From NCBI RefSeq assembly GCF_004331485.1, contig NZ_SJKD01000001.1:124001-188000 (forward strand): 64,000 nucleotides of DNA, read 5' to 3'. A program made the translations under genes and the position numbers. The notes under the pieces were generated by a model. It was not told the DNA's origin. It ran no database searches and saw only the letters and a program-made list of their open reading frames with translations. Below are positions 29,878 to 44,840 of the stretch, piece after piece. The DNA comes from Kribbella capetownensis (GTDB taxonomy: Bacteria > Actinomycetota > Actinomycetes > Propionibacteriales > Kribbellaceae). The stretch's first letter is position 1; every line of letters starts with the position of its first letter.

Positions 29878-30942
29878 ATGAGTCCCCGGGCGCAGGCAGC
29901 AAGGGCGTCGGTACCTGCACCGACACCACAGCCGGCTGTACGACGTCCGACGGTGCAGGACGTGGCGCGGGAGGCCGGCGTCTCGCCGTCCACCGTGTCG
30001 CGCGCACTGCACACCCGTGGGTACGCCTCCCCCGCGGTCCGGGCCCGGGTGCGGGCAGCGGCCGAGCGGATCGGGTACGTGGCCGACCACAACGCCCGGA
30101 ACCTGCGCAGTCGCACGTCCACCTCGATCGGTGTGCTGATCTCCGACCTCCGCAACCCGTTCTACGCCGACCTTGCGGCCGGGATCGAGGAGGAGCTGCG
30201 GGCAGCGGAGTACCAGATGGTGCTCGTCAACGACAACGCTGACCCTGCCGAGGAGATGCAGGCGGCGGAGACGCTGCTCGCGATGCGCGTACCCGGTGTG
30301 ATCGTCACACCGGTGACGGCCAAGTGCCCACAGGTCCTGCAGGACAACGGTGTCCATGTGGTCTGCGCCGACCGCGAGCTCGGCCGCTCCAACGGTGACG
30401 TCGTCCTGAGCGACAACAAGGCCGGCGCGCGCGAGCTGACCGAGCACCTGCTCAACCTCGGCCACACCCGGATCGGACTGCTGATCGACGAGACCAAGTG
30501 GTCGACGGGTGCGGGCCGGCTGGCGGGCTTCCGCGCTGCCCACCTGGACAACTTCGTCGATCTCGACGAGGACCTGGTCGCCTACACCAGCTTCGACGCC
30601 GGCGCTGCCCGGCAGACGACCCGCAAGCTGCTGAACGACCACGAGGTCACCGCGATCATCTCCGCGAACAACGTGCTCGCCCAGGGCGCACTGACCGAGC
30701 TCAAGGAACGGCGGCTGAAGATCCCGCGCCAGATCAGCCTCGCCGCCTACGACGACGTGCCCTGGATGTCGCTGGTGCAGCCGGCACTGACGACCGTCGA
30801 CCAGAGCACGGTCGAGATGGGCCGCAGCTGCGCGCGGTTGGTGCTGGCCCGGATCCGCGGCGAGCTCCCGCCGCGCCGGCGGATCGTCCGGGTGCCGGCC
30901 CGGCTGATCGTCCGCGGCTCCACCGGCCCGGCCCCGCGCTGA
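29878..30942 (+). CDS. LacI family transcriptional regulator
   Basis: A 354-residue repressor. The helix-turn-helix is at residues 22-48 (TVQDVAREAGVSPSTVSRALHTRG), the hinge follows, and a periplasmic-binding-protein-like ligand domain fills the rest (SIGVLISDLRNPFYADLAAGIEE). It lies ten bases after the glycosidase stop and upstream of the third ABC operon, in the middle of the set of TGG-N8-CCA palindromes, so it is the best candidate for their regulator. The inducer is probably a mono- or disaccharide from the glycan. Confidence 0.9.
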   Translation: MSPRAQAARASVPAPTPQPAVRRPTVQDVAREAGVSPSTVSRALHTRGYASPAVRARVRAAAERIGYVADHNARNLRSRTSTSIGVLISDLRNPFYADLAAGIEEELRAAEYQMVLVNDNADPAEEMQAAETLLAMRVPGVIVTPVTAKCPQVLQDNGVHVVCADRELGRSNGDVVLSDNKAGARELTEHLLNLGHTRIGLLIDETKWSTGAGRLAGFRAAHLDNFVDLDEDLVAYTSFDAGAARQTTRKLLNDHEVTAIISANNVLAQGALTELKERRLKIPRQISLAAYDDVPWMSLVQPALTTVDQSTVEMGRSCARLVLARIRGELPPRRRIVRVPARLIVRGSTGPAPR

Positions 30943-31106: not shown

Positions 31107-32477
31107 ATGAAGCACCTGCGCCTTCCCGTGGTGCTGGCCGCCGGCGCGCTGGCGCTCACCGCCTGTGCCGGCGTCGGGAACAAGGACGCCGGCGGTGGGA
31201 GCAGCGGTCAGGACTCCGCCGAGTCGACACCGTCCGGGACCCTGAGCGTGATGGGTTTCAGCGGTGAGGACGAGGTGGCGCAGTCCCGGATCGCCGCGTT
31301 CAAGGCGGCGTACCCGGGGGTGACAGTGAAGAACAACAAGGGCGACTTCGACGCCCAGCAGTTCCTCACCGCGGTCTCCAGCGGCAACGCGCCGGACGTC
31401 GTCTACATGGCCCGCAACCTGATCGGCACCTACGCGGCCAAGGGTGCGATCGTGCCGCTCGACGACTGCATCGCGACCGGTGGAATCGATACCACACAGT
31501 ATCGGGACGCCGCGATGAACGAGGTGAAGTTGAAGGACAAGACCTACGGCATCCCGGAGTTCTACACGGTCTCGGCGAACCTGATCAGCGGCAAGGCGCT
31601 GACGTCGGCCGGAGTCGCGGTCAGCGACATCCAGACCGCCGACTGGGACAAGTTGGAAGCGACCGCCAAGAAGCTGTACGTCGCGAAGAACGGCCGGCCG
31701 GCCCGGATCGGCTACGACCCGAAGGTGTCGGACCTGTTCCCGCTCTGGGCGATGGCCAACGGCGCCGAGCTGGTCAAGCCCGGCGGCGAGCCGAACCTGA
31801 ACGACCCGAAGGCGGTCGAGGCGCTGGAGTTCACGATCAAGCTGATCAACGACCAGGGCGGCTGGTCCAATTTCAAGACCTTCCGCGACACCTTCGACCT
31901 GTTCGGCGCGAAGAACCAGTTCACCAAGGACCAGCTGGCCGCGTTCCCGATCGAGAACTGGTACGTGAACGTCCTGCTCGACTCGCGCTCCAGCGGTCTG
32001 CAGCTGCAGTCGACGCCGTTCACCGACCGCCAGGGTCAGCCGATCAGCACCATCGGCGGCTCGGCCTGGGTGGTGCCGAAGGGCGCGAAGAACGCGAACG
32101 CCGCCTGCCAGTGGGCCAAGACGATGACCTCGCTGGAGACCTGGCACAAGGCGGCCGAGGCACGCATGCAGACCGTCACCAAAGACAAGAGCTTCTTCAC
32201 CGGCCTGTTCACCGGCAACAAGAAGGCCGATGAGGAGATCAAGGCGAAGTACCTCAAGCCCACCGGTGACGCCGGCTTCGACCAGGCGATCAACAACTAC
32301 TACGACGTGCTGGACAAGGCGAAGTCGATCAACCCGTCGGCGGCCGGTGCGGAGATCGACGCCGCCTGGAAAGCCGCGGTGGGCAAGGCCCTGGCGGGTT
32401 CGGCGACGCCGAAGGCCGCGCTCGACCAGGCGCAGAGCGAGGCCAAGGCGGCCTTCGACAAGGCTCCCCAGGGCTGA
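31107..32477 (+). CDS. sugar ABC transporter substrate-binding lipoprotein
   Basis: A 456-residue family 1 solute-binding protein. The signal peptide MKHLRLPVVLAAGALA ends with the lipobox LTAC (Cys20). The core has LSVMGFSGEDEVAQSRIAAF and NAPDVVYMARNLIG. TTAGGAG upstream is the ribosome binding site. It is the first gene of a likely seven- to eight-gene operon with mannosidases, so it probably binds mannose-containing oligosaccharides. A variant of the LacI palindrome, TGGAATCGATACCA, lies inside the gene at 31481-31494. Confidence 0.9.
   Translation: MKHLRLPVVLAAGALALTACAGVGNKDAGGGSSGQDSAESTPSGTLSVMGFSGEDEVAQSRIAAFKAAYPGVTVKNNKGDFDAQQFLTAVSSGNAPDVVYMARNLIGTYAAKGAIVPLDDCIATGGIDTTQYRDAAMNEVKLKDKTYGIPEFYTVSANLISGKALTSAGVAVSDIQTADWDKLEATAKKLYVAKNGRPARIGYDPKVSDLFPLWAMANGAELVKPGGEPNLNDPKAVEALEFTIKLINDQGGWSNFKTFRDTFDLFGAKNQFTKDQLAAFPIENWYVNVLLDSRSSGLQLQSTPFTDRQGQPISTIGGSAWVVPKGAKNANAACQWAKTMTSLETWHKAAEARMQTVTKDKSFFTGLFTGNKKADEEIKAKYLKPTGDAGFDQAINNYYDVLDKAKSINPSAAGAEIDAAWKAAVGKALAGSATPKAALDQAQSEAKAAFDKAPQG
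31481..31494. promoter_or_regulatory. possible intragenic LacI operator variant
   Basis: TGGAATCGATACCA inside the binding-protein gene differs from a perfect palindrome at one position pair and from the 26392 site at one base. It is about 430 bases downstream of the main operator, a distance seen for auxiliary operators that form loops or roadblocks. It could also be chance, because it encodes the ordinary peptide GIDT. Confidence 0.3.
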
Positions 32478-32478
32478 T

Positions 32479-33450
32479 ATGACGACGACCGTCGAGCGTG
32501 CGGCGGCACCCGGGCAGGCTGAGCCCGAGCGCCGCCGGCGCCGCCCGAAGCGGAGTCCGCTGACCCGGCGCGAGGACCGTGCCGGCTGGATGTTCATCGG
32601 GCCGTGGGTGCTCGGGTTCCTGATCTTCACCGCCGGCCCGATGATCGCCAGCCTGGTGCTGTCGTTCACCGACTACCAGATGATCCAGGCGCCGCGCGCG
32701 GTCGGCCTGGACAACTACCGGGAGCTGTTCGACGACCCGCGGGTGCTGAAGTCGCTCAGCAACACGTTCGTCTACGCCGCCATGTTCGTCCCGCTCGGCA
32801 CGATCTTCGCGCTGGTCCTCGCGTTGATGCTGCAGCGGGTCGGCCGGGCCGGCGGGTTCTTCCGGACCGCGTTCTACCTCCCGGAGATGACGCCGGCGGT
32901 GGCCGCGGGTGCGATGTTCCTGCTACTGCTCAACGGCCAGCAGGGCCTGGTGAACAAGGTCCTCGGCTGGGTCGGCATCAACGGCCCGAACTGGACGGCC
33001 GACCCGAACTGGCTGAAGCCGTCCCTCGCGATCGTGAGCCTGTGGACGCTCGGTGGCACCGTGGTGATCTACCTGGCCGCGCTGAACGGCGTACCGCGGC
33101 AGCTGTACGAGGCGGCCGAGCTGGACGGTGCCGGGCCGGTGACGCGGTTCTTCCGGATCACGGTGCCGATGATCTCCGGTGCGCTGTTCTTCACCGTCAT
33201 CACCAACACGATCGCGTCGATGCAGATGTTCGACCAGGCGTACACGATGTTCTACGGGCCGCAGCAGAAGGCGGCGGCCTCGGAGGAGTCGCTGGTGTAC
33301 ATGGTCTACCTGTTCCAGAACGCCTTCCAGTTCTTCAAGATGGGCTTCGCCTCGGCGATGGCGTGGCTGCTGTTCGTGATCATCCTGACGATCACCTTCC
33401 TGCAGGTGCGGATCGGCAACCGGTACGTCTACTACCACGGGGAGCGCTGA
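32479..33450 (+). CDS. sugar ABC transporter permease (MalF-type)
   Basis: A 323-residue permease with a basic, Pro/Arg-rich cytoplasmic start (about 35 residues) and six predicted helices. The EAA loop reads YEAAELDGAGPVTRFFRITVP. The ATG is one base after the binding-protein stop. It forms the import channel with the next gene. As in the other two importers of the window, no ATPase gene is present. Confidence 0.9.
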   Translation: MTTTVERAAAPGQAEPERRRRRPKRSPLTRREDRAGWMFIGPWVLGFLIFTAGPMIASLVLSFTDYQMIQAPRAVGLDNYRELFDDPRVLKSLSNTFVYAAMFVPLGTIFALVLALMLQRVGRAGGFFRTAFYLPEMTPAVAAGAMFLLLLNGQQGLVNKVLGWVGINGPNWTADPNWLKPSLAIVSLWTLGGTVVIYLAALNGVPRQLYEAAELDGAGPVTRFFRITVPMISGALFFTVITNTIASMQMFDQAYTMFYGPQQKAAASEESLVYMVYLFQNAFQFFKMGFASAMAWLLFVIILTITFLQVRIGNRYVYYHGER

Positions 33451-34280
33451 TGACCATCCCTTGGCGGCGGCTGCCGTTCCTGTTCTTCCTGACGCTGGCG
33501 ACGTTCGCGTTCGTCTATCCCCTGGTGTGGCTGGTCTCGGCGTCGCTGAAGCCGCGCGCTCAGGTGTTCGACAACCGGCTGATCCCTGAGGTGTTCCAGC
33601 CGTCGAACTACGCGCGGGTGTGGGACACAGCGCCCGTACTGCGCTGGCTGACCAACTCGCTGACGGTCGGGTTCATGGCCGCCGCGACCGTGACACTGTC
33701 GAGTGCGCTGGTGGCGTTCGGGTTCGCGTACTTCCGGTTCCGCGGCCGCAACATCGCCTTCGGCGTGCTGCTGTCGACGATGATGCTGCCTGGCGCGGTG
33801 ACGATGATCCCGGTGTACCTGATCTGGAACAAGCTCGGCATGATCGACACCCAGATCCCGCTCTGGGCACAGAACATGTTCGGCTCCGCCTTCTACGTGT
33901 TCCTGCTGCGGCAGTTCTTCCTCGGCATCCCGCGGGAGCTGTTCGAAGCGGCCCGGGTCGACGGGTGCAGCTACTTCGGCATGTTCCGCCGGGTGGCGTT
34001 CCCGCTCTGCAAGCCGGCCCTGGTGATCGTGTTCGTCTTCGAGTTCAAGGCGAGCTGGTCGGACCTGATGAGACCCCTGATCTACCTGCAGACCCCGGAG
34101 TACTTCACGATGCCGCGCGGCCTGAAGCAGATCATCGACGCCTTCGCCCTGTCGGGCCACTACGAGTGGGAGATCGCGGTGGCCGCCAGCGTGATCGCCG
34201 TCGTGCCGATGATCATCCTGTTCGCCTTCGGCCAGCGGTACATCCTCGACGGCGTGGCGACGACCGCGCAGAAAGGCTGA
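33450..34280 (+). CDS. sugar ABC transporter permease (MalG-type)
   Basis: A 276-residue six-helix permease with EAA loop FEAARVDGCSYFGMFRRVAFP and the typical end GQRYILDGVATTAQKG. Its ATG overlaps the upstream stop by one base (TGATG). It is the second channel subunit of the glycan importer. Confidence 0.9.
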   Translation: MTIPWRRLPFLFFLTLATFAFVYPLVWLVSASLKPRAQVFDNRLIPEVFQPSNYARVWDTAPVLRWLTNSLTVGFMAAATVTLSSALVAFGFAYFRFRGRNIAFGVLLSTMMLPGAVTMIPVYLIWNKLGMIDTQIPLWAQNMFGSAFYVFLLRQFFLGIPRELFEAARVDGCSYFGMFRRVAFPLCKPALVIVFVFEFKASWSDLMRPLIYLQTPEYFTMPRGLKQIIDAFALSGHYEWEIAVAASVIAVVPMIILFAFGQRYILDGVATTAQKG

Positions 34281-34282
34281 GC

Positions 34283-35263
34283 GTGAGCTCGCATCCCCCA
34301 TCGCAACCCGTCCTGGCCCTGGACGTCGGCGGCACCAAACTCGCCGCCGGCGTCGTCGCTCCGGACGGGATGCTGCGCTCGCTGTGCCAGGTCGAGACCG
34401 GCGTCGGCGAGGGGCCGGCCGCGGTCGTCAAACGCCTGATGGAGCTGGGCGAACAGGCGCTCGCCGAGTCGGGTGTGCAGACCGGGCCGTCCGGCGAACA
34501 CGTGGTCGCTGTCGGGGTGGGGTGTGGTGGTCCCCTCGATCCGCGGACCGGGGTGATCCTCGGGCCGCCCGGGCTCCCGGGCTGGGACGAGGTCCCGCTG
34601 GGCCGGATGGTGGCCGAGCGCTTCGGACTACCGACGTACGTCGAGAACGACGCGACCGCGGCCGCCCTCGGTGAGTACCGCTGGAGCGGCTGGGACGTGC
34701 GGAGCCTGGTCTATCTCACCGTCTCGACCGGGTTCGGCGGCGGTGTCGTTGCTGACGGCAAGCTGTTCCGCGGCGCGGCCGCCCAGGGTGGCGAGCTCGG
34801 CCACGTCGTCGTCGACTGGCAGGGCCGCGCCTGCGGTTGCGGTGCCCGCGGCTGCGCCGAGGCCTACGTCTCCGGTACGTCGATCGCCCGGCGAGCCACC
34901 GAGGCCGTCGCGGATCGACCGGACTCGAGCCTCGCGAAGCTGACCGCGATCACGGCCAAGGACGTGGCCGACCATGCCCGCGCCGGCGACGATGTCGCCC
35001 GGGCGACCTGGGACGAGACGACCGCGATGCTCGGCCGGATGGTCGCCGTACTGATCAACGTCTGCGAGCCGGAGCTCGTCGTCCTCGGTGGAGGGGTGAC
35101 GCGGGCCGGGAGCGAGCTGCTCGATCCGGTCCGCGAGGCCGCGCTGCGGCAGGCGATGCCGCCGGCCGCGAAGGCCTGCGACGTGGTGCTGAGTCGTCAT
35201 GGCGACGCGGTCGGAGTGCTCGGCGCCGCCGCCATCGCCTACGAGCGTCTGGGGGCATTGTGA
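34283..35263 (+). CDS. ROK family sugar kinase
   Basis: A 326-residue ROK kinase without a DNA-binding domain. The ATP site is at LALDVGGTKLAAGV near the start; ENDATAAALGE carries the catalytic Asp; and the zinc motif is CGCGARGCAE. It phosphorylates a hexose or N-acetylhexosamine such as glucose, mannose or ManNAc. GTG at 34283 is the start, two bases after the permease stop, and it overlaps the SIS gene by four bases. In this locus mannose released by the mannosidases is the most likely substrate. Confidence 0.85.
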   Translation: MSSHPPSQPVLALDVGGTKLAAGVVAPDGMLRSLCQVETGVGEGPAAVVKRLMELGEQALAESGVQTGPSGEHVVAVGVGCGGPLDPRTGVILGPPGLPGWDEVPLGRMVAERFGLPTYVENDATAAALGEYRWSGWDVRSLVYLTVSTGFGGGVVADGKLFRGAAAQGGELGHVVVDWQGRACGCGARGCAEAYVSGTSIARRATEAVADRPDSSLAKLTAITAKDVADHARAGDDVARATWDETTAMLGRMVAVLINVCEPELVVLGGGVTRAGSELLDPVREAALRQAMPPAAKACDVVLSRHGDAVGVLGAAAIAYERLGAL

Positions 35264-35853
35264 CGACCGGACTCGGCGGACTGCTCGACGGGCAACTGGA
35301 GCGGCATTCCGAGGTGGCGGCGGCGATGCGGGAGCAACTGCCGAATGTCCAGGCGGTCGCTGACGAACTGATCCGCCGCCTCGCCGGCGGCGGTGTGCTG
35401 TACACGTTCGGCAACGGTGGGTCCGCCGCCGACGCCCAGCATCTGGCCGGTGAGCTGATCGGGCGCTACCTGCGCGAGCGGCGCCCGCTCCCAGCGGTCG
35501 CCCTGATCGGCGACTCCGCTGTGGTGAGCTGTATCGCCAACGACTACTCATACGACGACGTGTTCTCGCGGCAGGTCACCGCACTCGCGCGCCCGCAGGA
35601 CATGGTGGTGGGGTTCAGTACGTCGGGGACCTCGCCTACGGTGGTGAACGGGCTCGCAGCGGCGCGGGCCAACGGAGCCTGCTCCGTCGCCTTCACCTCG
35701 ACGCGTGGGAAAGACCTCGCGGCCGCGGCCGACCTGGCCGTCGTCGTACCGGCCGAGGAGACGGCCCGGATCCAGGAGATGCACGTCCTCGCCCTGCACC
35801 TGGTCAGCGAACTCGTGGACCGCTGGGCGTCCGACACCGGGGAGAACCGATGA
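35260..35853 (+). CDS. SIS domain sugar-phosphate isomerase (GmhA-like)
   Basis: A 197-residue SIS protein. FGNGGSAADAQHLAGEL and VGFSTSGTSPTVVNGL are the two phosphosugar-binding loops, and the arrangement matches D-sedoheptulose 7-phosphate isomerase (GmhA) and its relatives. With the kinase just upstream it could isomerise the phosphorylated sugar, for instance aldose to ketose. The GTG overlaps the kinase stop by four bases, and the next gene overlaps its own stop in the same way. Confidence 0.82.
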   Translation: MTTGLGGLLDGQLERHSEVAAAMREQLPNVQAVADELIRRLAGGGVLYTFGNGGSAADAQHLAGELIGRYLRERRPLPAVALIGDSAVVSCIANDYSYDDVFSRQVTALARPQDMVVGFSTSGTSPTVVNGLAAARANGACSVAFTSTRGKDLAAAADLAVVVPAEETARIQEMHVLALHLVSELVDRWASDTGENR

Positions 35854-38312
35854 CACAGCCGGCGGCCAGAGGCCCGCTGCACATGATCGGCAACGCCCAC
35901 ATCGACGCGGTGTGGCTCTGGCAGTGGCAGGAGGGGTACCAGGAGGTGCGTGCCACGTTCCGCTCCGCACTGGACCGGATGGACGAGTATCCGGACTACG
36001 TCTTCACCGCGGATTCGGTCGCGTACTTCAGCTGGGTCGACGAACACGACCCTGAGTTGTTCGAGCGGATCCGCAAGCGGGTCTCCGAGGGCCGCTTCGA
36101 GATCGTCGGCGGCTGGTGGGTCGAGCCGGACTGCAACATTCCCGGCGGGGAGGCGTACGTCCGGCACGCGCTGTACTCGCAGCGCTGGCTCGCCGAGCAC
36201 CTCGGCGTGATCGCGACGGTCGGGTGCAACGTCGACCCGTTCGGACACAACGCGGCGCTGCCGCAGTTGCTCAGCAAGGCGCGGCTGGACTCCTACGCGT
36301 TCCTCCGGCCGCAGCGCCACGAACGCGAGCTGCCCGGCCAGAAGTTCTGGTGGGAGGCTCCCGACGGTTCCCGGGTGCTGGCCTACCGCATCCCGCACGA
36401 GTACTGCTCGCCGGGCGGTGAGATCTCCGGCCACGTCACCAAGGCGGTCCAGCAGTTGCCGGTGACAACGGAACCGCTGATGGTGTTCTACGGTGTCGGC
36501 AACCACGGCGGCGGTCCGACGATCGAGAACATCGAGTCGATCAAGCAGCTCGCCGAGCGCGATCTGTTCCCCGAGATGTTCCCGTCCACGATGCGCCGCT
36601 TCTTCGACGAAGCCCGGAGCTTCGACGGCATCCCGGTGCACGCGACCGAGCTGCAGCCGCACGCGATCGGCTGCTACGCCGCGCACTCAGGGGTGAAGCG
36701 GCAGAACCGGTTGGCCGAGCAGGCGTTGCTGGCCGCGGAGAAGTGGTCGACTGTCGCGGCCGAGGTGAGTGGCATGCCGGACGCCACCGCGGAGCTCGCG
36801 CATGCGTGGAAGCAGGTGCTGTTCAACCAGTTCCACGACATCGCGGCCGGCACCGCGATCGAGCCGGCGTACGACGATGCCCGCGACCAGCTCGGTGAGG
36901 CGAAGTCGATCGCGGCGCGGCTCGCGAACCGGTCGATCCAGTCGATCGCGCGGCAGATCGACATCCCGGCCGAGACCGCGATGGTCCCGGTCGCGGTCTT
37001 CAACCCGCACGCGTGGCCCGTGACAGCGACGGTAGAGCTCGAGCTCGGGTACCCGGCGCCGCTGCGCGGTGCGATCGCGCTGTCGGAGGGACGCGACGGG
37101 CATCTGGTCGACGTCCAGGAGGTGCGGTCGGCCGCGACGGCGAACGGGCGTCGGCGGATCGCCTTCAAGGCAACGGTTCCACCACTCGGGTACCAGCTCT
37201 ACACGATGCGTCCGGGCGACACGTCGTACCACCTGGGCCGGCCGTCGGGAGGCCGGCTGACGCTGGACAACGGCGTAGTCCGGGCGGAGATCGATCCGGC
37301 AACCGGCTGGCTCAAGGCGCTGGGGACGGCCACCGGGCCGAACCTGGTGGCGTCCGGAGTCGCGCATGCCCAGGTGATCGATGACGACACCGACACGTGG
37401 AGCCACGGCGTCCGGTCGCTGTGGAAGACGGCCGGTGCGTTCGAGGTCACTGGGGTGCGGCGTCTCGCCGATGGGCCGGTCCGACAGATGGTCCGGGTGG
37501 AATCGGCGTACCAGGACTCCCGGCTGGTGGAGGAGTTCGTGCTCGACGCGGAGTCGGACGCGATCGAGATGCGGGTGACGGTCGACTGGCGCGAGCGGTT
37601 GAAGGCACTGAAGTTGTGCTTCCCGTTCGCTCTGCGGCAGTCCGAGGCGACGCACGAGATCCCGTACGGGCACCTCGTCCGGGAGCAGAACCGGGAAGAG
37701 GTGCCGTCACACGCCTGGGTGGACGTGTCGGGTGACGGCGGTGGGGTCGCGGTGCTGAACGACGGCAAGTACTCGTTCGCGGTCGACGGCTCGTCGGCCG
37801 GACGGCCGGTGCTGGCGATGACTGTGGTGCGGTCGCCTGTCTACGCGTGGCACGATCCGCGCCGGTTGGACGACGACGGCGTCTACGAGTACCTCGACCA
37901 GGGCATCCAGCGGTTCACGTACCGCCTGCAGCCACACGAGGGCGACTGGCGCGCGGCCGGGGTGGTGCGCCGGGCGGCTGAGCTCAACCAGCCGGTGACG
38001 CCGCTGGTCGAGTGCTTCCATGCCGGACCGCTCCCGGTGTCGCAGTCCTATCTCGCGGTGACCGGGGCGGACCACGTGGTGTTCTCGGTCGTCAAGCGGG
38101 CGGAGGACAACGACGGGACCGTGATCCTGCGCGGGTACGAGACCGCTGGGCGACCGGCCGAGGTGACGGTGGACGTGCTGGGCCGCAGCTTCGACACCGC
38201 CTTCCGGCCGCATGAGGTGAAGACCCTCAGGCTGTCCCGCGAGACCGAGGCCGGACCGGTGGAGCTCGACCTGCTCGAGTGGGACCCGGCCGCTCCACCA
38301 CCCATTCCTTGA
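35850..38312 (+). CDS. glycoside hydrolase family 38 alpha-mannosidase
   Basis: An 820-residue GH38 enzyme. NAHIDAVWLWQW holds the zinc-binding His and Asp, NVDPFGHNAALPQ carries the catalytic nucleophile Asp, and GVGNHGGGPT is a further active-site motif. The C-terminal half (about 410-820) is the beta-sandwich typical of the family. No signal peptide is seen, so it acts on imported oligosaccharides inside the cell, removing alpha-linked mannose. It overlaps the SIS gene by four bases and is followed by the beta-mannosidase one base after its stop. Confidence 0.92.
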   Translation: MTQPAARGPLHMIGNAHIDAVWLWQWQEGYQEVRATFRSALDRMDEYPDYVFTADSVAYFSWVDEHDPELFERIRKRVSEGRFEIVGGWWVEPDCNIPGGEAYVRHALYSQRWLAEHLGVIATVGCNVDPFGHNAALPQLLSKARLDSYAFLRPQRHERELPGQKFWWEAPDGSRVLAYRIPHEYCSPGGEISGHVTKAVQQLPVTTEPLMVFYGVGNHGGGPTIENIESIKQLAERDLFPEMFPSTMRRFFDEARSFDGIPVHATELQPHAIGCYAAHSGVKRQNRLAEQALLAAEKWSTVAAEVSGMPDATAELAHAWKQVLFNQFHDIAAGTAIEPAYDDARDQLGEAKSIAARLANRSIQSIARQIDIPAETAMVPVAVFNPHAWPVTATVELELGYPAPLRGAIALSEGRDGHLVDVQEVRSAATANGRRRIAFKATVPPLGYQLYTMRPGDTSYHLGRPSGGRLTLDNGVVRAEIDPATGWLKALGTATGPNLVASGVAHAQVIDDDTDTWSHGVRSLWKTAGAFEVTGVRRLADGPVRQMVRVESAYQDSRLVEEFVLDAESDAIEMRVTVDWRERLKALKLCFPFALRQSEATHEIPYGHLVREQNREEVPSHAWVDVSGDGGGVAVLNDGKYSFAVDGSSAGRPVLAMTVVRSPVYAWHDPRRLDDDGVYEYLDQGIQRFTYRLQPHEGDWRAAGVVRRAAELNQPVTPLVECFHAGPLPVSQSYLAVTGADHVVFSVVKRAEDNDGTVILRGYETAGRPAEVTVDVLGRSFDTAFRPHEVKTLRLSRETEAGPVELDLLEWDPAAPPPIP

Positions 38313-38313
38313 G

Positions 38314-40770
38314 ATGCGCATCCCGCTCGACCGCGCTGCCTGGAGAGTCCGAGGGTTCCTCGGCGACGAGTGGCAGCATCACCGTGTCTGGGGATCGCTC
38401 CGCGAACCGGACGCGTGGATGCAGGCCCGCGTCCCCGGGAGCGTCGTCGACGATCTGTGGAATGCCGGCGTCGTACCGGATCCGTACGTCGGGCTGAACA
38501 CACGCGCGATCGAGTGGGTGCCGGATCGGCACTGGGTCTACCGGCACGAGTTCCGGATGTTCCCACCGACGGCTGATCGGCGGGCTTGGCTGTGCTTGGA
38601 CGGAGTGGATCACAGCGGTGTCGTCTACCTGGACGGGCAGGAGCTCGGCCGGGTCGACGGGATGTTCGTGGCCGCACGCTTCGACGTCACCGAGTTGTTG
38701 CTCGCGTCAACGGATCACGTGCTGGTGGTCGTGGTGGAGCCGGTGCCGGTGAGTGAGCCCCAGGTCGGTCACACGGCGAAGGTGCGGGTGCACAAGTCGC
38801 GGATGACGTACGGCTGGGACTTCTGTCCACGGCTCGTGCATCAGGGGATCTGGCAGTCGGTGTACGTCGAGGTTACCGGTCCGGTCGTGCTCGGCGACAT
38901 CGACGTACGAACCTCCTTCATCGACGGCGACGCGGTCGTGACCGTTCCCGGCGCTTCGGCGCTGGCCCTCCTCGAAGCCGACGGCGAAGTGGTTGCTTCA
39001 GGCAATCAGAGACTGACCGTGCCGGACCCGCGGCGCTGGTGGCCGAACGGATACGGTTCGCCGTACCTGTATCACCTGGTCGTCACCGCGTACGCCGACG
39101 GCACGGTCAGCGACCGGCGGGAGCTCGACATCGGGCTTCGTGAGTTGCGGTTCCATCGGGCCGAAGGGGCCGGCGAGGACGCGGCGCCGTACGGGATCGA
39201 GGTCAACGGGCAGCGGATCTTCGGCAAGGGCTGGAACTGGGTGCCGATAGACCTCAGCTACGGCGTACCGCGGCCTGATCGGTTGGAGCACCTGCTGGAT
39301 CTCGCGGCCGACGCCGGGGTGAACCTGCTCCGGGTGTGGGGCGGCGGGCTGATCGAGACGCCCGAGTTCTATGCCGCCTGTGACCGGCGCGGGCTGCTGG
39401 TGTGGCAGGAGTTCGCACAGTCCAGCTCTGGGATCTCGTCCACGCCGGCGGATGACGACGCGTTCGTCTCGATGATGCGGGCGCAGGCCGAGCAGATCGT
39501 GCCGCGGTTGCGCTCCCATCCGTCGCTCGCGATCTGGGGTGGCGGCAACGAGTTGCAGGCGGGCGAGGGCGAACCGCTCGACGATCGCACGCCGGTGCTC
39601 GCCGCGCTGGCCGACGTCGTGCAGCGGCTCGATCCCGAACGACTCTGGCTGTCCACATCACCGACCGGACCGGCGTTCCTGAACCGGCTCGACCTGATCC
39701 AGCAAGCACCGGACGACCAGCACGACGTACACGGCCCGTGGGAGCACCAGGGACTACGGGACCACTACGCGTTGTACGACGCCGGGACGGCGCACCTGCT
39801 GAGTGAGTTCGGCGTCGAGGGCCTGACGATGCCACGCACCCTGGCCCAGGTCGTCCCCGAGCTCGAACGGCGGTTGCCGACCCGCGGTCGGCCGGTGTGG
39901 GATCACCTCGGCCGCTGGTGGAACAACGAGTCACTCGTGCAAGCCTCCTTCGGCGGCCGCGTCGCGGACCTCACCACGATGGGTCTGGCCAGCCAGTTCC
40001 TGCAGCGCGACGGCCTCTCGTACGCCGTCGAGGCCCATCGCCGCCGGGCCCCTCGCTGCGTCGGGACACTACCGTGGCAGTTCAACGAGCCCTATCCCAA
40101 TGCCTGGTGCACGTCTGCCATCACTCACGCCGGCGAACCGAAGCCGGCGTACTTCGGTGTCGCGGCGGCGTACCGGCCCGTGCTCGTCGGCGCGATCTGC
40201 TCGCGCCAGAGCTGGGCGGGACATCCGGAAGTCCGGCTTCCGCTCTGGGCTCTGTCTGAGCGTCCGCTCGTCGACGCCACGCTCACTGCGCGCCTTGTGT
40301 CCTACTCCGGGGACGACCTGGCCGTCCTGACCGTGCAGGACATCTCGCTCGGACCGGTCGCGGCGGCAGTCGGCGAACTCCGGGCGCCGACACCTGCCGG
40401 CGCGTTCATCGTCGACCTCCGGCTGACGGCCGGCGAGGTCGACATCACCCGCCGCTACCTTCTGAGCGGCGCCGACGATCTGTCCGAACTCCTCGACGCA
40501 CAGACCACGCTGGACGTCTCGTCGCACGGCTCTGATCTGACAATCCGCCACATGGCCGGCCCTGTCGCTCCCTTCATCCGCATTCGCGACGACCGACCGC
40601 TGCGCGACTCGCCCGGCTGGCTCCGTCCCTCGGACAGCGGCTTCATCCTTCTCCCAGGCGAAGAACGCGTCATCACCCTGGACTGGCCCAACGCCGACGG
40701 CGCGGAGAGCTGGGTCGCGGTCGACGGACTTGGACTCCACTCGACCGAAAGGCTCATCCGATGCAGGTGA
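38314..40770 (+). CDS. glycoside hydrolase family 2 beta-mannosidase
   Basis: An 818-residue GH2 protein. An N-terminal jelly roll (about 1-165) and Ig-like domain lead to a TIM barrel (about 290-590). GGGNELQ contains the acid/base Glu, and HLLSEFGVEG the nucleophile Glu. The barrel entry GKGWNWVPIDLSYG fits the mannosidase branch rather than beta-galactosidase. It would remove beta-linked mannose, as at the core of N-glycans or from mannans. No signal peptide. It overlaps the next gene by ten bases. Confidence 0.88.
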   Translation: MRIPLDRAAWRVRGFLGDEWQHHRVWGSLREPDAWMQARVPGSVVDDLWNAGVVPDPYVGLNTRAIEWVPDRHWVYRHEFRMFPPTADRRAWLCLDGVDHSGVVYLDGQELGRVDGMFVAARFDVTELLLASTDHVLVVVVEPVPVSEPQVGHTAKVRVHKSRMTYGWDFCPRLVHQGIWQSVYVEVTGPVVLGDIDVRTSFIDGDAVVTVPGASALALLEADGEVVASGNQRLTVPDPRRWWPNGYGSPYLYHLVVTAYADGTVSDRRELDIGLRELRFHRAEGAGEDAAPYGIEVNGQRIFGKGWNWVPIDLSYGVPRPDRLEHLLDLAADAGVNLLRVWGGGLIETPEFYAACDRRGLLVWQEFAQSSSGISSTPADDDAFVSMMRAQAEQIVPRLRSHPSLAIWGGGNELQAGEGEPLDDRTPVLAALADVVQRLDPERLWLSTSPTGPAFLNRLDLIQQAPDDQHDVHGPWEHQGLRDHYALYDAGTAHLLSEFGVEGLTMPRTLAQVVPELERRLPTRGRPVWDHLGRWWNNESLVQASFGGRVADLTTMGLASQFLQRDGLSYAVEAHRRRAPRCVGTLPWQFNEPYPNAWCTSAITHAGEPKPAYFGVAAAYRPVLVGAICSRQSWAGHPEVRLPLWALSERPLVDATLTARLVSYSGDDLAVLTVQDISLGPVAAAVGELRAPTPAGAFIVDLRLTAGEVDITRRYLLSGADDLSELLDAQTTLDVSSHGSDLTIRHMAGPVAPFIRIRDDRPLRDSPGWLRPSDSGFILLPGEERVITLDWPNADGAESWVAVDGLGLHSTERLIRCR

Positions 40771-42584
40771 ACGTGTCCGTCGAAGGCGCCGTACTGATGG
40801 CTGGGGCCGACTGGGAATTCGAGACGGTCGAAGGCAAGGACGAGGTCAGGGTTCGGGTCCGGTACGACGGGACCGAGGCCGTGGACGCCCGGGTGCGGGT
40901 CGAGGTGCCTGTATCGGCCGGCGAGCATCCGCACTGGTTGATTCCGGGGTTGTTCTACGGCGACAACCGGGATCCTGAGTGTGCACGGCTGTACCCGCGC
41001 TACGCGCCCGGTGAGGTCGATGCCGCGACGCTGGTGTCAGATCATTGGGCGTTCCGGGCCGACCGCGCCGCGACTCCGGTTGTCTTCGCGTGGGGTCCGG
41101 AAGGTGGCGTCGCGCTCGAGGTCGAAGCGAACACCCCGCTGGGGCTCAGCGGGCTGGGCTTCGGCCCCGCGTCGGTTTGGGTCTCCTTGCCGTACCGCGA
41201 GGAGCCCTTCAGCTACGTCGGTCAGCCCGAGGCGGTCGCTGCACTGGCCGAGTCGTATCGCTGGTCGCCCGGCGAGGCCCACGAACTGCGTCTCGGCCTG
41301 TGGAAACTCCCATCCGATCGAACCAGCTACGTCCCGATCTTGCGGCGGCTGCGCGAACGCCACGCAGAGCCACCGGTCCAACCCTGGGTCGACCTGGCCG
41401 AGGCAGCCGAGCTCACGTCGTACGGGCTGTGGCGATGGCACTACCGCGAAGACCCAGCGGTTCTGATCGAGACAGCCCTCTTCGACCGCGAACTCGCCGG
41501 CGATCTCGGCCCGCGCGGCGATCGGCTGGCGATGCACGTCGCCTGGGTCAGCGGCATCCCGTACGCCCACGCCCTGCTTCGCCACGGCCGCCGCGTCAAC
41601 AACCCGGCGTACGTGAGCGCAGGTACGGCGGTCATCGACACCATCACCGGCACTCTCACCCCCGCCGGCACGTTCTGGGGTTGCTGGTACGCCGAACACG
41701 GCTGGCGCGGATCCTGGACACCGGTCGAACGCGGTCTGCACGCCCGCACACTGGCCGAGGCGACGCTGTTCACCCTCCGGGCGATGGCGGCCGAGCCGGT
41801 CGAGCACCCGTCGTGGCGAGCCGCGGCGCTGAGCAATCTCGAGTTCGCCCTCGCAGCACAAGATGCCGAGGGCAACTTCGGCAGCATGTACCACCTCGAC
41901 TCCGGCAAGGTCCTCTCACGCCGCGGCGCAGCCGGCCTCACCTGGGTTGCGGCGATGGCCGAGGCCTACGAACTACTCGGCGACGAGCGCTACCGCGACG
42001 CGGCCCGACGCGGCGGCGGGTACTACGCGTCGTTCGTCCACGAGGGCACGCTCTGCGGGGCTCCGGAAGACGTCGACCTGGCACCAACGTCCGAGGACGG
42101 GTACGCCGCGGTCATCTCGTACGTCGCCCTGCACCGCATCGATCCCCACTGGATCTCGACCGCCCGGGCGGCAGCCGACTGGATGCTCACCTTCCGCTAC
42201 ACCTACGACGTCCACTTCTCGCCGCAGACCCTCCTCGGCGCCTACAACTTCCGCACCCGCGGCGCGGACCAGGCAAGCCCCTCCAACCAGCATCTCCACA
42301 ACTACGGCCTGATCTGCACGCCCGAACTCGTCGCCCTCTCCGCCCTCACGAACGACGAGACCTACGCCACCGCAGCCGTCGACCATCTCCGTTTCGCCCG
42401 CCAGTTCGTCGCCCGCGAAGACGGCGACTTCAACGCCCGCCGAGGAATGGTCACCGAACGCTACTACCACACCACCTGCTTCGGCCCACCCGGCGCAGTC
42501 CTCACCCTCTCCCACTCCTGGTGCACCGGCCTCCTCCTCCTAGCCTCCGAACAGGCCCTGACCCTCCCCTCGATCAACTGGTGA
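40761..42584 (+). CDS. unassigned protein with predicted alpha/alpha-barrel, glycan locus
   Basis: A 607-residue cytoplasmic protein that I cannot place in a named glycosidase family. The first 200 residues look beta-rich (VRVRVRYDGTEAVDARVRVEVP); the rest reads like a six-hairpin alpha/alpha barrel, with pairs such as WRAAALSNLEFALAAQD, LTWVAAMAEAYELLGDERY and GLICTPELVALSALTNDETY spaced about 50 residues apart. Such barrels occur in glucuronyl hydrolases, mannosidases and polysaccharide lyases. It overlaps the beta-mannosidase gene by ten bases and ends the operon, so an enzyme for the same glycan is likely. Catalytic residues are not identified. Confidence 0.6.
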   Translation: MQVNVSVEGAVLMAGADWEFETVEGKDEVRVRVRYDGTEAVDARVRVEVPVSAGEHPHWLIPGLFYGDNRDPECARLYPRYAPGEVDAATLVSDHWAFRADRAATPVVFAWGPEGGVALEVEANTPLGLSGLGFGPASVWVSLPYREEPFSYVGQPEAVAALAESYRWSPGEAHELRLGLWKLPSDRTSYVPILRRLRERHAEPPVQPWVDLAEAAELTSYGLWRWHYREDPAVLIETALFDRELAGDLGPRGDRLAMHVAWVSGIPYAHALLRHGRRVNNPAYVSAGTAVIDTITGTLTPAGTFWGCWYAEHGWRGSWTPVERGLHARTLAEATLFTLRAMAAEPVEHPSWRAAALSNLEFALAAQDAEGNFGSMYHLDSGKVLSRRGAAGLTWVAAMAEAYELLGDERYRDAARRGGGYYASFVHEGTLCGAPEDVDLAPTSEDGYAAVISYVALHRIDPHWISTARAAADWMLTFRYTYDVHFSPQTLLGAYNFRTRGADQASPSNQHLHNYGLICTPELVALSALTNDETYATAAVDHLRFARQFVAREDGDFNARRGMVTERYYHTTCFGPPGAVLTLSHSWCTGLLLLASEQALTLPSINW

Positions 42585-42619: not shown

Positions 42620-43471
42620 TCAGGTGGCTTCGGTCCAGGGGCGGGCGTGGTGGTGGACCGTGGCGGCGATCAGGGTCAGGCGGTCGCGGCAGGTTGTGGC
42701 GAGAGTTGGGTTGGGGTCGTCGGACTCGAGGGCTGGGGTCCAGAGGGCTCGGCCGGCCAGGGTGCCTGAGGCTCCGCCTCGGCAGGCCAGCTCCACGGCG
42801 CGGGGAAAGTCGTCGCGGGCTACCCCGTTGGAGAGGACGACCCAGGGGCTGTCGAGGGTGGTGGTGAGTTGTTCGCAGGTCTTGATGATGGCCGCGGGAT
42901 CGCCCAGCCCGCGGCTCGGGACCTGGGCCTTGTACAGGTCGGGGCGGGTCGGGCCAAGCGCCTCGGCTGCGGCCACGATCGCCGCATCCAGGTCGAAGTC
43001 GTCCTCGCCAGGCGCGGGTTGGGCGACGGGCTCGAGTACGGACAGCAGACCGGCCTCCGCGCATCGATCGACGAACTGCGCGGACATCTCGAGGCGGCGC
43101 GCTTCCTGACCGTCGTGTTTCCAGATCACGAGGAGCTTGAGCGCAACCGCGCCGGCCTCGCGCGCGGCGAGAGGGTCCACGGTCTCGTCGATGTGCGTAT
43201 CGGTGACCGGTCCCCCGCGCTGCTGCGTCAGCGCGTCGGCCGCGAGGATCCACCCGGGGCCGGGCGGGACGTCGTACCCCTGCTCGATCAGGAAACCGGA
43301 TGCGAGCGGCCCGAGGTGCCGGCCGACAGCGGCCTTGAACGCGGTGATCGCCTCGGGTCCGTCCGGGCGGCCGTGGTCGGCGAGCATCGTGCGCAGGCTC
43401 TCGCGCTGGTCCATCGCGACCATCGCGAAGGTGCCGTCCGGGTACGCGAGGGCGTCGAGCGTCGGTCTCAT
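42620..43471 (-). CDS. class I aldolase, LacD/tagatose-bisphosphate aldolase-like
   Basis: A 283-residue TIM-barrel protein. DGTFAMVAMDQRESLRTML and AVALKLLVIW (with the probable Schiff-base lysine) match the LacD and sulfofructose-1-phosphate aldolase group, and LDSPWVVLSNGV is the conserved barrel end. The ATG at 43471 has GAGGAGG in front; a longer frame upstream lacks one. It lies ten bases after the kinase gene at 43482-44840, so kinase and aldolase form a two-step route to triose phosphates. The true substrate (tagatose, sulfofructose or other phosphates) is not settled by sequence. Confidence 0.72.
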   Translation of the reverse strand: MRPTLDALAYPDGTFAMVAMDQRESLRTMLADHGRPDGPEAITAFKAAVGRHLGPLASGFLIEQGYDVPPGPGWILAADALTQQRGGPVTDTHIDETVDPLAAREAGAVALKLLVIWKHDGQEARRLEMSAQFVDRCAEAGLLSVLEPVAQPAPGEDDFDLDAAIVAAAEALGPTRPDLYKAQVPSRGLGDPAAIIKTCEQLTTTLDSPWVVLSNGVARDDFPRAVELACRGGASGTLAGRALWTPALESDDPNPTLATTCRDRLTLIAATVHHHARPWTEAT

Positions 43472-43481
43472 CAGGGCCTCC

Positions 43482-44840
43482 TCAGGCGGTTCGCGACACC
43501 ACCCTATGGAATCGATGCCAGAAATGGCTATCCCACGTCTCAGCAACCTGTGGACGAACCGCGATCGGCCTTGCCTGCAAAGGCTCCACCGGACGACCCG
43601 TGACCACCTCGGCCGCCATCAGGGCAGCGCCCTCCGCCGCAGTCGCCGCACCCCGCAGTACGGCGAAGTCCCGGCCGCCGGACGCGTACGCCTTCCGCTC
43701 CATCCACCCCGCGAGCCGAGTCGGACCGCCGAAAGCCACCGTGCTCCGCCATTCGATCCCGAGCAGCCGCGTCTGCTCCTCCGCCATCCACCGCGCGTGG
43801 AAGCTCAACCCGTCCACCAATGCCCGCATCTCCTCGCCGTGATCGTCCACAGGCCGGGTGACGTCGTACGTCGGCGTCGAGTCCGGCAATGGCGCCTGAC
43901 GACCCTGTGGATAAGGGGCCACGTGCAGCTCGCTCGGCGCGCGAACCGCGTTCAGCGCCTCCGACAGCCACCCGTAGTCACGCCCGAGCGCGGCCAGCCG
44001 CTGCTCGACCAGACCGCCGGCAGCGCCGTGACCGGAGATCGCGCAGCCGTGCCGCCCATCGACGTACCAGCCAGTGCTGATGCCTTGCTGCCGCAGTACG
44101 TCGTCCATGACCGGGGAGTGGCTCGGTGTGATGACCGCCTCTGACGTCCCCAGGGAGTCCGCCACCTGACCGGGCTCCCTGACCCCCGCCGCCCAGGCGC
44201 CGACCAGATGGTCGTGGCCGCACAGCACCACCGGTACGCCGGCCGCAGTGGTTGCCGTCACAGTCATCGGTTCGGTCACCGGCGGAAGACGGTCCAGCCC
44301 GCCGAAGGTGAGGAGCTCCGGGTCCCACGCTCTGGTGTGGAGGTCCAGTGTTCCCAGGCGCTGCGCGTGGGTGAGGTGGGTGGCGTACGTGCCGGTCAAC
44401 GCGGCGAGTGCGAGATCGGGCGCGCCGGCCCAGATCCGGGTGCGGGCGACCGTCGCGGGCTGGGTCTCACGGAGCCAGCGCCAGGTGACGACGGGGAGCT
44501 TCGGACTCAGGCGGAGACCGGTCCGGGCGAACACCCCGCACTCACCAACCTCGGCCCGCAGCCGCTCGGCCTGCGCGACCCCGGGCTGATCACGCCAGGT
44601 GATCAGCTTGGTGAGTGGCTGGAGTCCGCGATCCAGCGGCGCCCCCGTCTCGGCCATGCCTGCGATCCCGATGCCGTCGACCCGCTCCCCGTCCGACAGC
44701 TCGCCCACCAACCGCCGTACGGCGCCCTGCAGCGCGAGCGCATCATCCGGGGTCGGTACCGATCGCGTTGTACCGCCGGGAACTCGGCACACCTTCAGAT
44801 TCGTCGTACCGACATCGACACCCAGCCAGGTCACCGTCAC
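43482..44840 (-). CDS. FGGY family carbohydrate kinase
   Basis: A 452-residue kinase. GVDVGTTNLKVCRV at the start is the FGGY ATP-binding opening, and the C-terminal domain has TVAFGGPTRLAGWMERKAYASG. The family phosphorylates pentoses, hexuloses, glycerol and related sugars. It is transcribed away from the mannosidase operon and is followed ten bases later by an aldolase. A LacI-type palindrome lies in its last 40 bases, just ahead of the aldolase start, which may link the pair to the same regulator. Confidence 0.83.
   Translation of the reverse strand: MTVTWLGVDVGTTNLKVCRVPGGTTRSVPTPDDALALQGAVRRLVGELSDGERVDGIGIAGMAETGAPLDRGLQPLTKLITWRDQPGVAQAERLRAEVGECGVFARTGLRLSPKLPVVTWRWLRETQPATVARTRIWAGAPDLALAALTGTYATHLTHAQRLGTLDLHTRAWDPELLTFGGLDRLPPVTEPMTVTATTAAGVPVVLCGHDHLVGAWAAGVREPGQVADSLGTSEAVITPSHSPVMDDVLRQQGISTGWYVDGRHGCAISGHGAAGGLVEQRLAALGRDYGWLSEALNAVRAPSELHVAPYPQGRQAPLPDSTPTYDVTRPVDDHGEEMRALVDGLSFHARWMAEEQTRLLGIEWRSTVAFGGPTRLAGWMERKAYASGGRDFAVLRGAATAAEGAALMAAEVVTGRPVEPLQARPIAVRPQVAETWDSHFWHRFHRVVSRTA
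43507..43520. promoter_or_regulatory. LacI-type palindrome at the kinase-aldolase junction
   Basis: TGGAATCGATGCCA differs from the 26392 site by one base and from the 31052 core by one base. It lies inside the last codons of the kinase gene, 36 bases before the aldolase ATG on the minus strand. It could give separate control of the aldolase, or be chance coding sequence (it encodes W-H-R-F). Confidence 0.4.

Follow-up and report, generated by a model that had tools for sequence, protein, structure and literature searches.

Enzymes of glycoside hydrolase (GH) families GH15, GH65, and GH94 follow a general plan in which a beta supersandwich domain precedes an (alpha/alpha)6 barrel, with the catalytic acid carried by the loop between barrel helices 5 and 6. 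A polysaccharide lyase (PL) of family PL27, the L-rhamnose-alpha-1,4-D-glucuronate lyase BACCELL_00875 (PDB entries 5no8 and 5nok), is likewise composed of an N-terminal beta-sandwich and an (alpha/alpha)6 barrel; PL27 enzymes belong to polysaccharide loci and work outside the cytoplasm. This work concerns a gene at positions 40761 to 42584 (+ strand) of a 64,000-nucleotide stretch of the Kribbella capetownensis genome (referred to here as the window; GCF_004331485.1, NZ_SJKD01000001.1, positions 124,001 to 188,000 of the forward strand). The gene encodes a 607-residue protein predicted to pack a beta supersandwich at its N terminus against an (alpha/alpha)6 barrel, and its family recurs in operons with an ATP-binding cassette (ABC) importer, a ROK sugar kinase, an SIS-fold isomerase, and a GH38 enzyme. 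In the N-glycan loci of Cutibacterium acnes, a cytoplasmic GH38 enzyme lies beside a GH5_18 beta-mannosidase and an ABC importer (PMC6160142). Those loci additionally hold GH20 and GH18, or GH125, whereas the annotated genes of the Kribbella operon include no GH18, GH20, GH85, or GH125, and the passages available from that paper name no protein of the kind described here. The xanthan locus of Paenarthrobacter, in the available part of its report, contains GH38, an N-acetylglucosamine kinase, and manA, with no known uronyl hydrolase (PMC12772297). Our best reading of the 607-residue protein is that it represents a new family within a known superfold, one without a curated Pfam or NCBIfam model, and we lean toward its being a cytoplasmic, exo-acting glycoside hydrolase with a putative substrate and candidate catalytic residues as set out below.

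The open reading frame (ORF) from 40761 to 42584 is a real gene rather than a chance ORF, as its same-genus orthologues, its 80 retained relatives in other genomes, and ratios of nonsynonymous to synonymous substitution rates (dN/dS) of 0.157 to 0.269 show. Orthologues at 74 to 77% identity occur in five further genomes of the genus, one of which (G032) is split over two frames, and dN/dS values against four same-genus orthologues were 0.187, 0.157, 0.180, and 0.269. An earlier reading of the DNA (the sequence-only reading) had placed a 607-residue gene at the operon end with a start overlapping the beta-mannosidase gene; the ORF is present, and its ATG start at 40761 gives it an overlap of 10 bases with the end of the GH2 ORF (38314 to 40770), stop codon included. 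This start is supported by the relative in Kribbella sp. ALI-6-A, whose alignment spans residues 1 to 607; the closest named relatives, both from Kribbella, are 71 and 74% identical. The window protein is ∼60 N-terminal residues shorter than its Bacillota relatives, and no ATG, GTG, or TTG codon occurs upstream of 40761 within the open frame of the gene.

Searches with the 607-residue protein gave no match in Pfam (best, Pec_lyase; E of 0.14 and 11.9 bits against a cutoff of 22) or NCBIfam (best E of 0.17 and 9.6 bits against a cutoff of 304), and 0 matches among PDB sequences at E ≤ 1. The sequence-only reading had recognized no known family motif, and no hit to a known family turned up in these three sources (CAZy lay outside the comparison). 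The family was also not described in the literature searched, a search outside of which most subscription journals fell. Among the individual families considered, GH76 (PF03663) was not found among Pfam matches at E ≤ 1, and the Pfam search returned no match to the AGE superfamily (PF07221), GH88/GH105 (PF07470), GH125 (PF06824), or GH94 and GH65. Profile-profile comparison with hhalign gave a probability of 51 (P of 1.5e-4) against 27 GH76 sequences; since the helices align out of register, we take this as a repeat-level likeness. The remaining comparisons gave a weak, off-register probability of 23.7 against 5 AGE sequences, a probability of 0.06 against 25 GH125 sequences, and a probability of 1.5 against a GH88 template in what is a weak test (3 sequences, 167 columns).

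For profile searches of the PDB, we used an alignment of 83 sequences (A1), comprising 76 of the 80 retained loci, L003 and L004, the 607-residue protein, and four paralogues (L010, L011, L013, and L019). Loci L094, L095, L098, and L100 were excluded as partial or divergent, and many actinobacterial ORF starts were cut back to ≤55 codons ahead of the match. In a second alignment (A2), the window and L021 were joined by 36 N-terminal stretches out of 47 prepared. At E ≤ 10, the A1 profile retrieved 6 PDB rows: LanC-like protein 2 (E of 1.2e-4), YteR of GH105 twice (E of 0.055 to 0.056), and three rows at 0.19 to 0.27. No PL27 chain was among these 6 rows.

The fold was predicted with AlphaFold2 from 83 sequences, giving a model with a predicted local distance difference test score (pLDDT) of 93.0 and a predicted template modeling score (pTM) of 0.93. 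In the model, strands lie within residues 2 to 183, followed by a linker helix and then twelve long helices (212–227 to 586–600). The predicted supersandwich domain, with its shorter start, corresponds to positions 40761 to 41309 (codons 1 to 183, + strand), and the predicted barrel, which is also the part covered by most structural matches, corresponds to 41373 to 42581 (codons 205 to 607, + strand). The beta-rich start and the helix pairs resembling an alpha/alpha barrel that the sequence-only reading had described are both borne out, and the structure prediction it had proposed as a check yields a fold typical of carbohydrate enzymes. As modeled, the order of the domains is the plan of GH15/65/94-type and PL27-type enzymes.

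Foldseek comparison of the whole model to the PDB returned 196 matches at E ≤ 0.001. Ranks 1 and 2 are the PL27 lyase BACCELL_00875 (E of 5.9e-11 and 6.9e-11), and lower rows include cyclic glucan synthase, GH76, cellobiose 2-epimerase, YihS, cellobiose phosphorylase (GH94), and GH116. VIA-align was run on the top 1000 Foldseek matches, and the best 50 rows were considered; these have Z scores of 24.6 to 30.3, nearly all across residues ∼202 to 607. The highest rows, across ∼205 to 607, are the uncharacterized 7tem (Z of 30.3), GH76 (28.4), MmpH (28.1), and epimerases (up to 28.1). GH125 and GH88 fall outside the best 50 rows, which excludes neither, as the list is limited to chains ranked by Foldseek. 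Because many VIA-align rows lie within a few Z units of one another, the modeled fold alone picks no family. With the GH76 alpha-1,6-mannanases (Z of 24.6 to 28.4) and MmpH (7qsj), both of which act on mannosides, the protein shares the barrel, the only part that the matched structures cover.

The leading position of PL27 bears on the strongest rival explanation, namely, that the protein is an exo-acting lyase or unsaturated-uronyl hydrolase (PL27 or GH88/105-like) that removes a uronic acid or a neighboring cap. PL27 chain 5no8_A aligns over both domains (model residues 1 to 602; Z of 26.0), although with a root mean square deviation of 5.5 over 420 residues and 9 to 10% identity, and PL27 chains are missing from the A1 profile rows. 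We consider this explanation unlikely, and the lack of PF07470 together with the low GH88 profile probability, weak as that test is, argues against its uronyl-hydrolase form. The beta domain lends it some support. When modeled alone in its longer form, from the Neobacillus relative L046 (249 residues, pLDDT of 89.5), this domain is predicted to be a galactose-mutarotase-like supersandwich with matches to GH94, GH31, GH36, a GH38 domain, alpha-galactosaminidase, and PL26, the last being an exo-rhamnogalacturonan lyase. The VIA-align rows listed for it have Z scores of 11.0 to 15.8, and its first Foldseek rows include nonenzymes of the same fold (for example, the periplasmic domain of YidC and a subunit of NDH-PSI).

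A second rival explanation, which we regard as quite unlikely, is a sugar epimerase or isomerase similar in kind to AGE, cellobiose 2-epimerase, and YihS, which would convert the sugar, as imported or once released, ahead of ROK and SIS. The barrel of such enzymes superposes on that of the window protein as well as GH76 does (Z of 24.6 to 28.1); however, the AGE matches begin at residue 204 and are confined to the barrel, whereas the 607-residue protein adds a supersandwich, and the missing PF07221 match and off-register profile alignment also speak against a close relation.

Conservation within the family points to a candidate active site. Across the 79 family rows of A1 (the 607-residue protein and 78 loci), 42 polar or aromatic positions are invariant, among them E436, D437, E445, D446, E566, E237, D242, D503, E522, H227, H259, H511, H585, N509, R102, R255, and R329. 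A candidate acid/base cluster is formed by E436, D437, E445, and D446 (positions 42066 to 42098, codons 436 to 446, + strand), in a loop ahead of barrel helix 8. N509 and H511 (42285 to 42293, codons 509 to 511, + strand) are candidate substrate-binding or catalytic residues, and E566 (42456 to 42458, + strand), in a loop ahead of the last barrel helix, is a candidate second catalytic carboxylate. In the AlphaFold2 model, the candidate residues sit on or beside loops at one shared end of the barrel. The four paralogues in A1, as aligned by MAFFT, keep E436/D437, E445, N509, H511, E566, R102, and R329, with Pro in place of H585. In a hidden Markov model (HMM) alignment of three distant proteins (from Segatella, from Streptomyces, and the paralogue in the K. 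capetownensis genome itself), E445 and the N-x-H motif are kept in all three and D437 in two; the Glu-Asp of the own-genome paralogue pairs with E445/D446 rather than E436/D437. From their invariance in the 79 rows and their retention in paralogues or distant proteins, E445, N509, H511, and E566 emerge as the firmest candidates for a catalytic role.

These residues also help in weighing the alternatives. Invariant N509 and H511, with the arginines, would suit elimination by a lyase, but several invariant carboxylates fit hydrolysis better. For the epimerase, H585 is invariant and stands at the start of helix 12, and AGE enzymes have two catalytic histidines, at helices 8 and 12; however, by helix position, helix 8 of the window protein begins with E445/D446 rather than His, and the Pro in place of H585 in the four paralogues is a further point against. 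Compared in the same way, the region of residues 297 to 330 near the start of helix 4, where GH76 has its adjacent catalytic Asp pair, has no Asp or Glu conserved at ≥95%; the invariant E436-D437 pair is placed ahead of helix 8.

An inverting glycoside phosphorylase like those of GH94 and GH65, yielding a sugar 1-phosphate, would account for the shared two-domain plan and for the matches of GH94-type phosphorylases to both the whole model and the beta domain; a cytoplasmic site with a sugar kinase pathway is also usual for phosphorylases. We nevertheless judge this very unlikely. A phosphorylase needs one catalytic carboxylate, whereas several are invariant here, and they lie before helices 8 and 12, unlike the acid in the helix 5-6 loop of GH15/65/94. 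No sequence relation to those three families was found, including in Pfam for GH94 and GH65, and no sugar-1-phosphate mutase gene was recognized among the annotated neighbors. That the protein instead has an enzyme-like fold but binds carbohydrate in a noncatalytic or regulatory role would agree with the fact that no relative with a known activity was found; there is very little chance of this, given that the 42 invariant positions, with their carboxylates and histidines on loops at one barrel end, are maintained across several phyla.

In a scan of named genomes, 92 stretches matched the search pattern and 85 encode relatives, of which 80 (38 to 74% identical in the best segment) were retained. 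They come mostly from Actinomycetota and Bacillota, and otherwise from Kryptonia, Armatimonadota, and one metagenome-assembled genome labeled Steroidobacteraceae. Within the phylum, 5 of 198 genomes drawn had any match at E ≤ 0.001 (own genome counted), and a full-length match was found only in the own genome and one other. In a Nonomuraea record, the stretch encoding a homologue carries no annotated feature.

Neighboring genes were counted over the 80 loci by tblastn at 1e-12. GH38 is present in 63 loci, SIS in 57, permeases in 54 to 55, ROK in 48, LacI in 41, and a metallo-beta-lactamase (MBL)-fold protein in 20; GH2 (13), GH1 (13), GH31-like (12), and GH36-like (2) genes are rarer. GH38 lies on the same strand in 60 of the 80 loci and at ≤4.5 kb in 61, and a stricter coverage rule detects it in 62. 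Restricting the count to the 64 loci with >6 kb on both flanks gives GH38 in 53, SIS in 50, ROK in 43, and any of the three in 61. GH1 had appeared to be a frequent neighbor (43 loci) when ORFs were clustered, but that cluster was swollen by shadow ORFs of the gene described here, and GH1 was rejected as a frequent partner on the tblastn count.

The Bacillota operons add a uronate-isomerase-like amidohydrolase (24 of 80 loci), an Asp/Glu-racemase-like protein, two types of class II aldolase, and a DUF1537 kinase, each in 23 to 29 of the 80 loci. The amidohydrolase is a point in favor of the uronic acid-directed rival, as is the Paenarthrobacter xanthan locus, which has no GH88 and no known enzyme for uronyl removal (PMC12772297). 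Against this, no Actinomycetota locus showed the uronate-isomerase-like gene at the threshold used, and the available part of the gene list of the xanthan locus names no protein of this kind. As an observation in its own right, L046 (1983 to 17586) and similar Bacillota loci constitute a whole uncharacterized catabolic operon, made up of LacI, an ABC importer, the uronate-isomerase-like protein, the 607-residue family, the racemase-like protein, a class II aldolase, GH38, OtnC-like and OtnK-like (DUF1537) proteins, SIS, and ROK. In Kryptonia (L099 and L092), the family member is flanked by a divergent GH38 (24 to 25% identical), a protein with a Meth_synt_2 domain (Pfam match in L099), and two proteins, of 525 and 785 residues in L099, that match nothing in Pfam.

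Within the genus, the gene is patchy in its occurrence. In one survey of 37 same-genus genomes, six including the window matched over most of the length at ≥74% identity, and G001 held a remnant. In the genus sample of 38 genomes, a GH38 orthologue occurs in 10; of these, 5 have the gene intact, 1 has it frame-broken, 2 carry a remnant of it, and in the last 2 it was not found. Both the gene and GH2 are intact in the own genome (G000) and in G006, G012, G013, and G016. G032 has no GH2 match and carries the gene at full length in two frames (which could be a sequencing error), G255 has an intact GH2 and a remnant of residues 29 to 60, and in G001 (L158, 3670 to 4130) one deletion joins GH2 residues 1 to 36 to residues 493 to 607 (the last 115) of the gene product. 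Neither the gene nor GH2 was found in G020 and G034. ROK and SIS lie beside GH38 in all 10 genomes (ROK of G001 is cut by the contig end), as do the permeases and substrate-binding protein except in G001, and nine GH38 copies compared with that of the window have no stops and pairwise omega values of 0.11 to 0.20. On the GH38 tree, the four genomes lacking the gene occupy separate tips, with G020, G034, and G255 beside intact relatives.

The gene thus appears to have been lost at least 4 times while ROK, SIS, and GH38 stayed; loss is proven by remnants in two genomes and inferred for the remaining pair. The pathway of ROK, SIS, and GH38 seems able to run in the absence of the gene, which argues for an enzyme acting on an optional linkage rather than for a core step such as isomerization of the released sugar. 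An optional glycosidase suits these losses better than a core metabolic step does, and the pattern counts against an epimerase ahead of ROK and SIS. GH2 is gone together with the gene in 3 of the 4 inferred losses. Strict co-loss with GH2, as suggested by a 58-genome set in which G032 was already an exception, was rejected, as it is contradicted by G255. The role on the same glycan as GH2 that the sequence-only reading had proposed is therefore plausible, with G255 and G032 as exceptions to it. Separately, eight same-genus genomes keep an SIS copy (79 to 82% identical) without a GH38 orthologue, and in G008 this is an orphan LacI-SIS pair.

A glycoside hydrolase in this setting could act as follows. 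A mannose-containing oligosaccharide would enter through the ABC importer, GH38 would remove alpha-linked and GH2 beta-linked mannose, and ROK and SIS would convert mannose to fructose 6-phosphate. The 607-residue enzyme would take off a residue beyond the reach of both mannosidases, possibly by direct (inverting) hydrolysis, in a pocket at the barrel end that bears the loops. The carboxylates involved would be E445 foremost, along with E436, D437, and D446, and also E566 ahead of the final helix, and the sugar may be held by H511, N509, and R329 and by the beta-domain loop that carries R102.

Several points weigh against this proposal. No substrate or activity is known for the family, the predicted fold also serves epimerases and lyases, and the top two Foldseek rows are a polysaccharide lyase. 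None of the three distant proteins retains E436 in the HMM alignment, which in two of them (Segatella and Streptomyces) does not extend to E566, and the MAFFT and HMM alignments disagree, so that the register of residues 436 to 446 is uncertain for distant relatives. The link to mannosides has exceptions, as 11 of the 64 full-flank loci lack GH38 (8 of these 11 retain SIS), and the uronate-isomerase-like and DUF1537 kinase genes of Bacillota are not needed for mannose alone. With regard to the losses, the genus sample is small, adjacent genes may go in one event, and pairwise omega averages a whole branch and so is no proof of selection on the operon after loss. G255, which keeps GH2 without the gene, and G032, which keeps a frame-broken gene without GH2, count against action on the same glycan as GH2. 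The glycosidase-type family proposed by the sequence-only reading has in its favor the fold, the lack of a family match, and the mannosidase operon, and against it the lyases, phosphorylases, and epimerases that share the fold.

More distant sister proteins place relatives of the family among polysaccharide-degrading loci, as is evident from their GH28, apiosidase-like, and GH43 neighbors. A paralogue in the own genome (G000:C3; L101, 7315 to 9372, contig 3) has a DUF5060/DUF5605 protein on one side, a GH28 enzyme of the polygalacturonase type on the other, and no Pfam match of its own; it scores 475.6 bits against the A1 model, which itself holds four similar paralogues, and 60.8 bits against a family-only model. 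A second Kribbella paralogue (L104) is preceded by an apiosidase-like GH and followed by a DUF1537 kinase, and an ORF in between resembles that of the GH28 enzyme. The Segatella hominis relative, a hypothetical protein of 669 residues, adjoins GH43 and SusC/SusD-type genes. The HMM test of three sequences gave best-domain E values of 3.4e-36 (Segatella), 7.7e-37 (Streptomyces), and 1.8e-19 (own paralogue).

These relatives allow a broader view, which we hold as a tentative possibility, of a two-branch superfamily of carbohydrate enzymes with its own catalytic arrangement that breaks a linkage lacking a known intracellular enzyme. One branch would belong to the mannoside operons of Actinomycetota, Bacillota, Kryptonia, and Armatimonadota, and the other to different glycan loci in Kribbella, Streptomyces, and Bacteroidota, with GH28, apiosidase-like, or GH43 neighbors where these were read. 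The arrangement would consist of acids before helices 8 and 12 and a conserved S-x-x-N-x-H motif before helix 10. A defined activity would be the basis of a family whose sister branches occur in other loci for glycan degradation. The 85 confirmed relatives, confident fold prediction, conserved context, and lack of a curated model point to a step still missing from the picture of how bacteria use mannose-containing sugars, and naming the substrate would help to explain the Actinomycetota and Bacillota operons that carry other unplaced genes.

The operon is larger than the GH38-GH2 operon of the sequence-only reading: both of those genes are present and confirmed by Pfam, and the operon extends from an MBL-fold gene at 26420. 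All of its genes lie on the + strand, in the following order: a tandem MBL-fold protein (26420 to 28174; Pfam Lactamase_B in two stretches, E of 4.1e-17), a GH31-like protein (28185 to 29867, start codon uncertain), a LacI-type regulator (29878 to 30942), an ABC substrate-binding protein (31107 to 32477; no Pfam match, weak GanS/MalE NCBIfam matches), UgpA/MalF-like and UgpE/MalG-like ABC sugar permeases (32476 to 33450 and 33453 to 34280), the ROK sugar kinase (34280 to 35263), a GmhA-like SIS-fold isomerase (35263 to 35853), a protein of the GH38 alpha-mannosidase family (35850 to 38312; Pfam Glyco_hydro_38N, E of 1.6e-61), a GH2 protein of the beta-mannosidase type (38314 to 40770), and the gene described here. 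In the PDB, the GH38 protein matches Ams1 and other alpha-mannosidases best, and the six best matches of the GH2 protein are all beta-mannosidases (top, 5n6u, E of 1.2e-67).

Manno-heptose catabolism, which the GmhA-like SIS protein might suggest, was set aside, with a gmhA score of 157.5 bits against the NCBI cutoff of 209.45 and no title on heptose breakdown among the 5 papers listed by a literature search. Our guess, by analogy, is that the SIS protein may serve as a mannose 6-phosphate isomerase, since the Paenarthrobacter xanthan locus pairs an N-acetylglucosamine kinase with manA near GH38. We take that kinase to be of the ROK kind, a word the paper does not use. Two glycan settings were also considered. 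N-glycan breakdown as the main role, as suggested in the sequence-only reading, is weakened only: GH125, a family linked with the trimming of N-glycans, gave one match in each of 25 same-genus genomes (that of the own genome on another contig, G000:C26), whereas the gene is present in few. Xanthan breakdown was rejected, as the annotated operon genes include neither GH88 nor PL8 and the available part of the gene list of the xanthan locus shows no such protein (PMC12772297).

Downstream, two genes on the − strand converge on the operon, a LacD/DeoC-type aldolase (42620 to 43546, with the true start probably further in) and an FGGY sugar kinase (43482 to 44840). The GH31-like protein near the other end of the operon may itself represent an undescribed glycosidase family; its relatives in other loci (12 of 80) are 37 to 46% identical to it, and one of them has a borderline Pfam match to Glyco_hydro_31_2nd (E of 3e-5).

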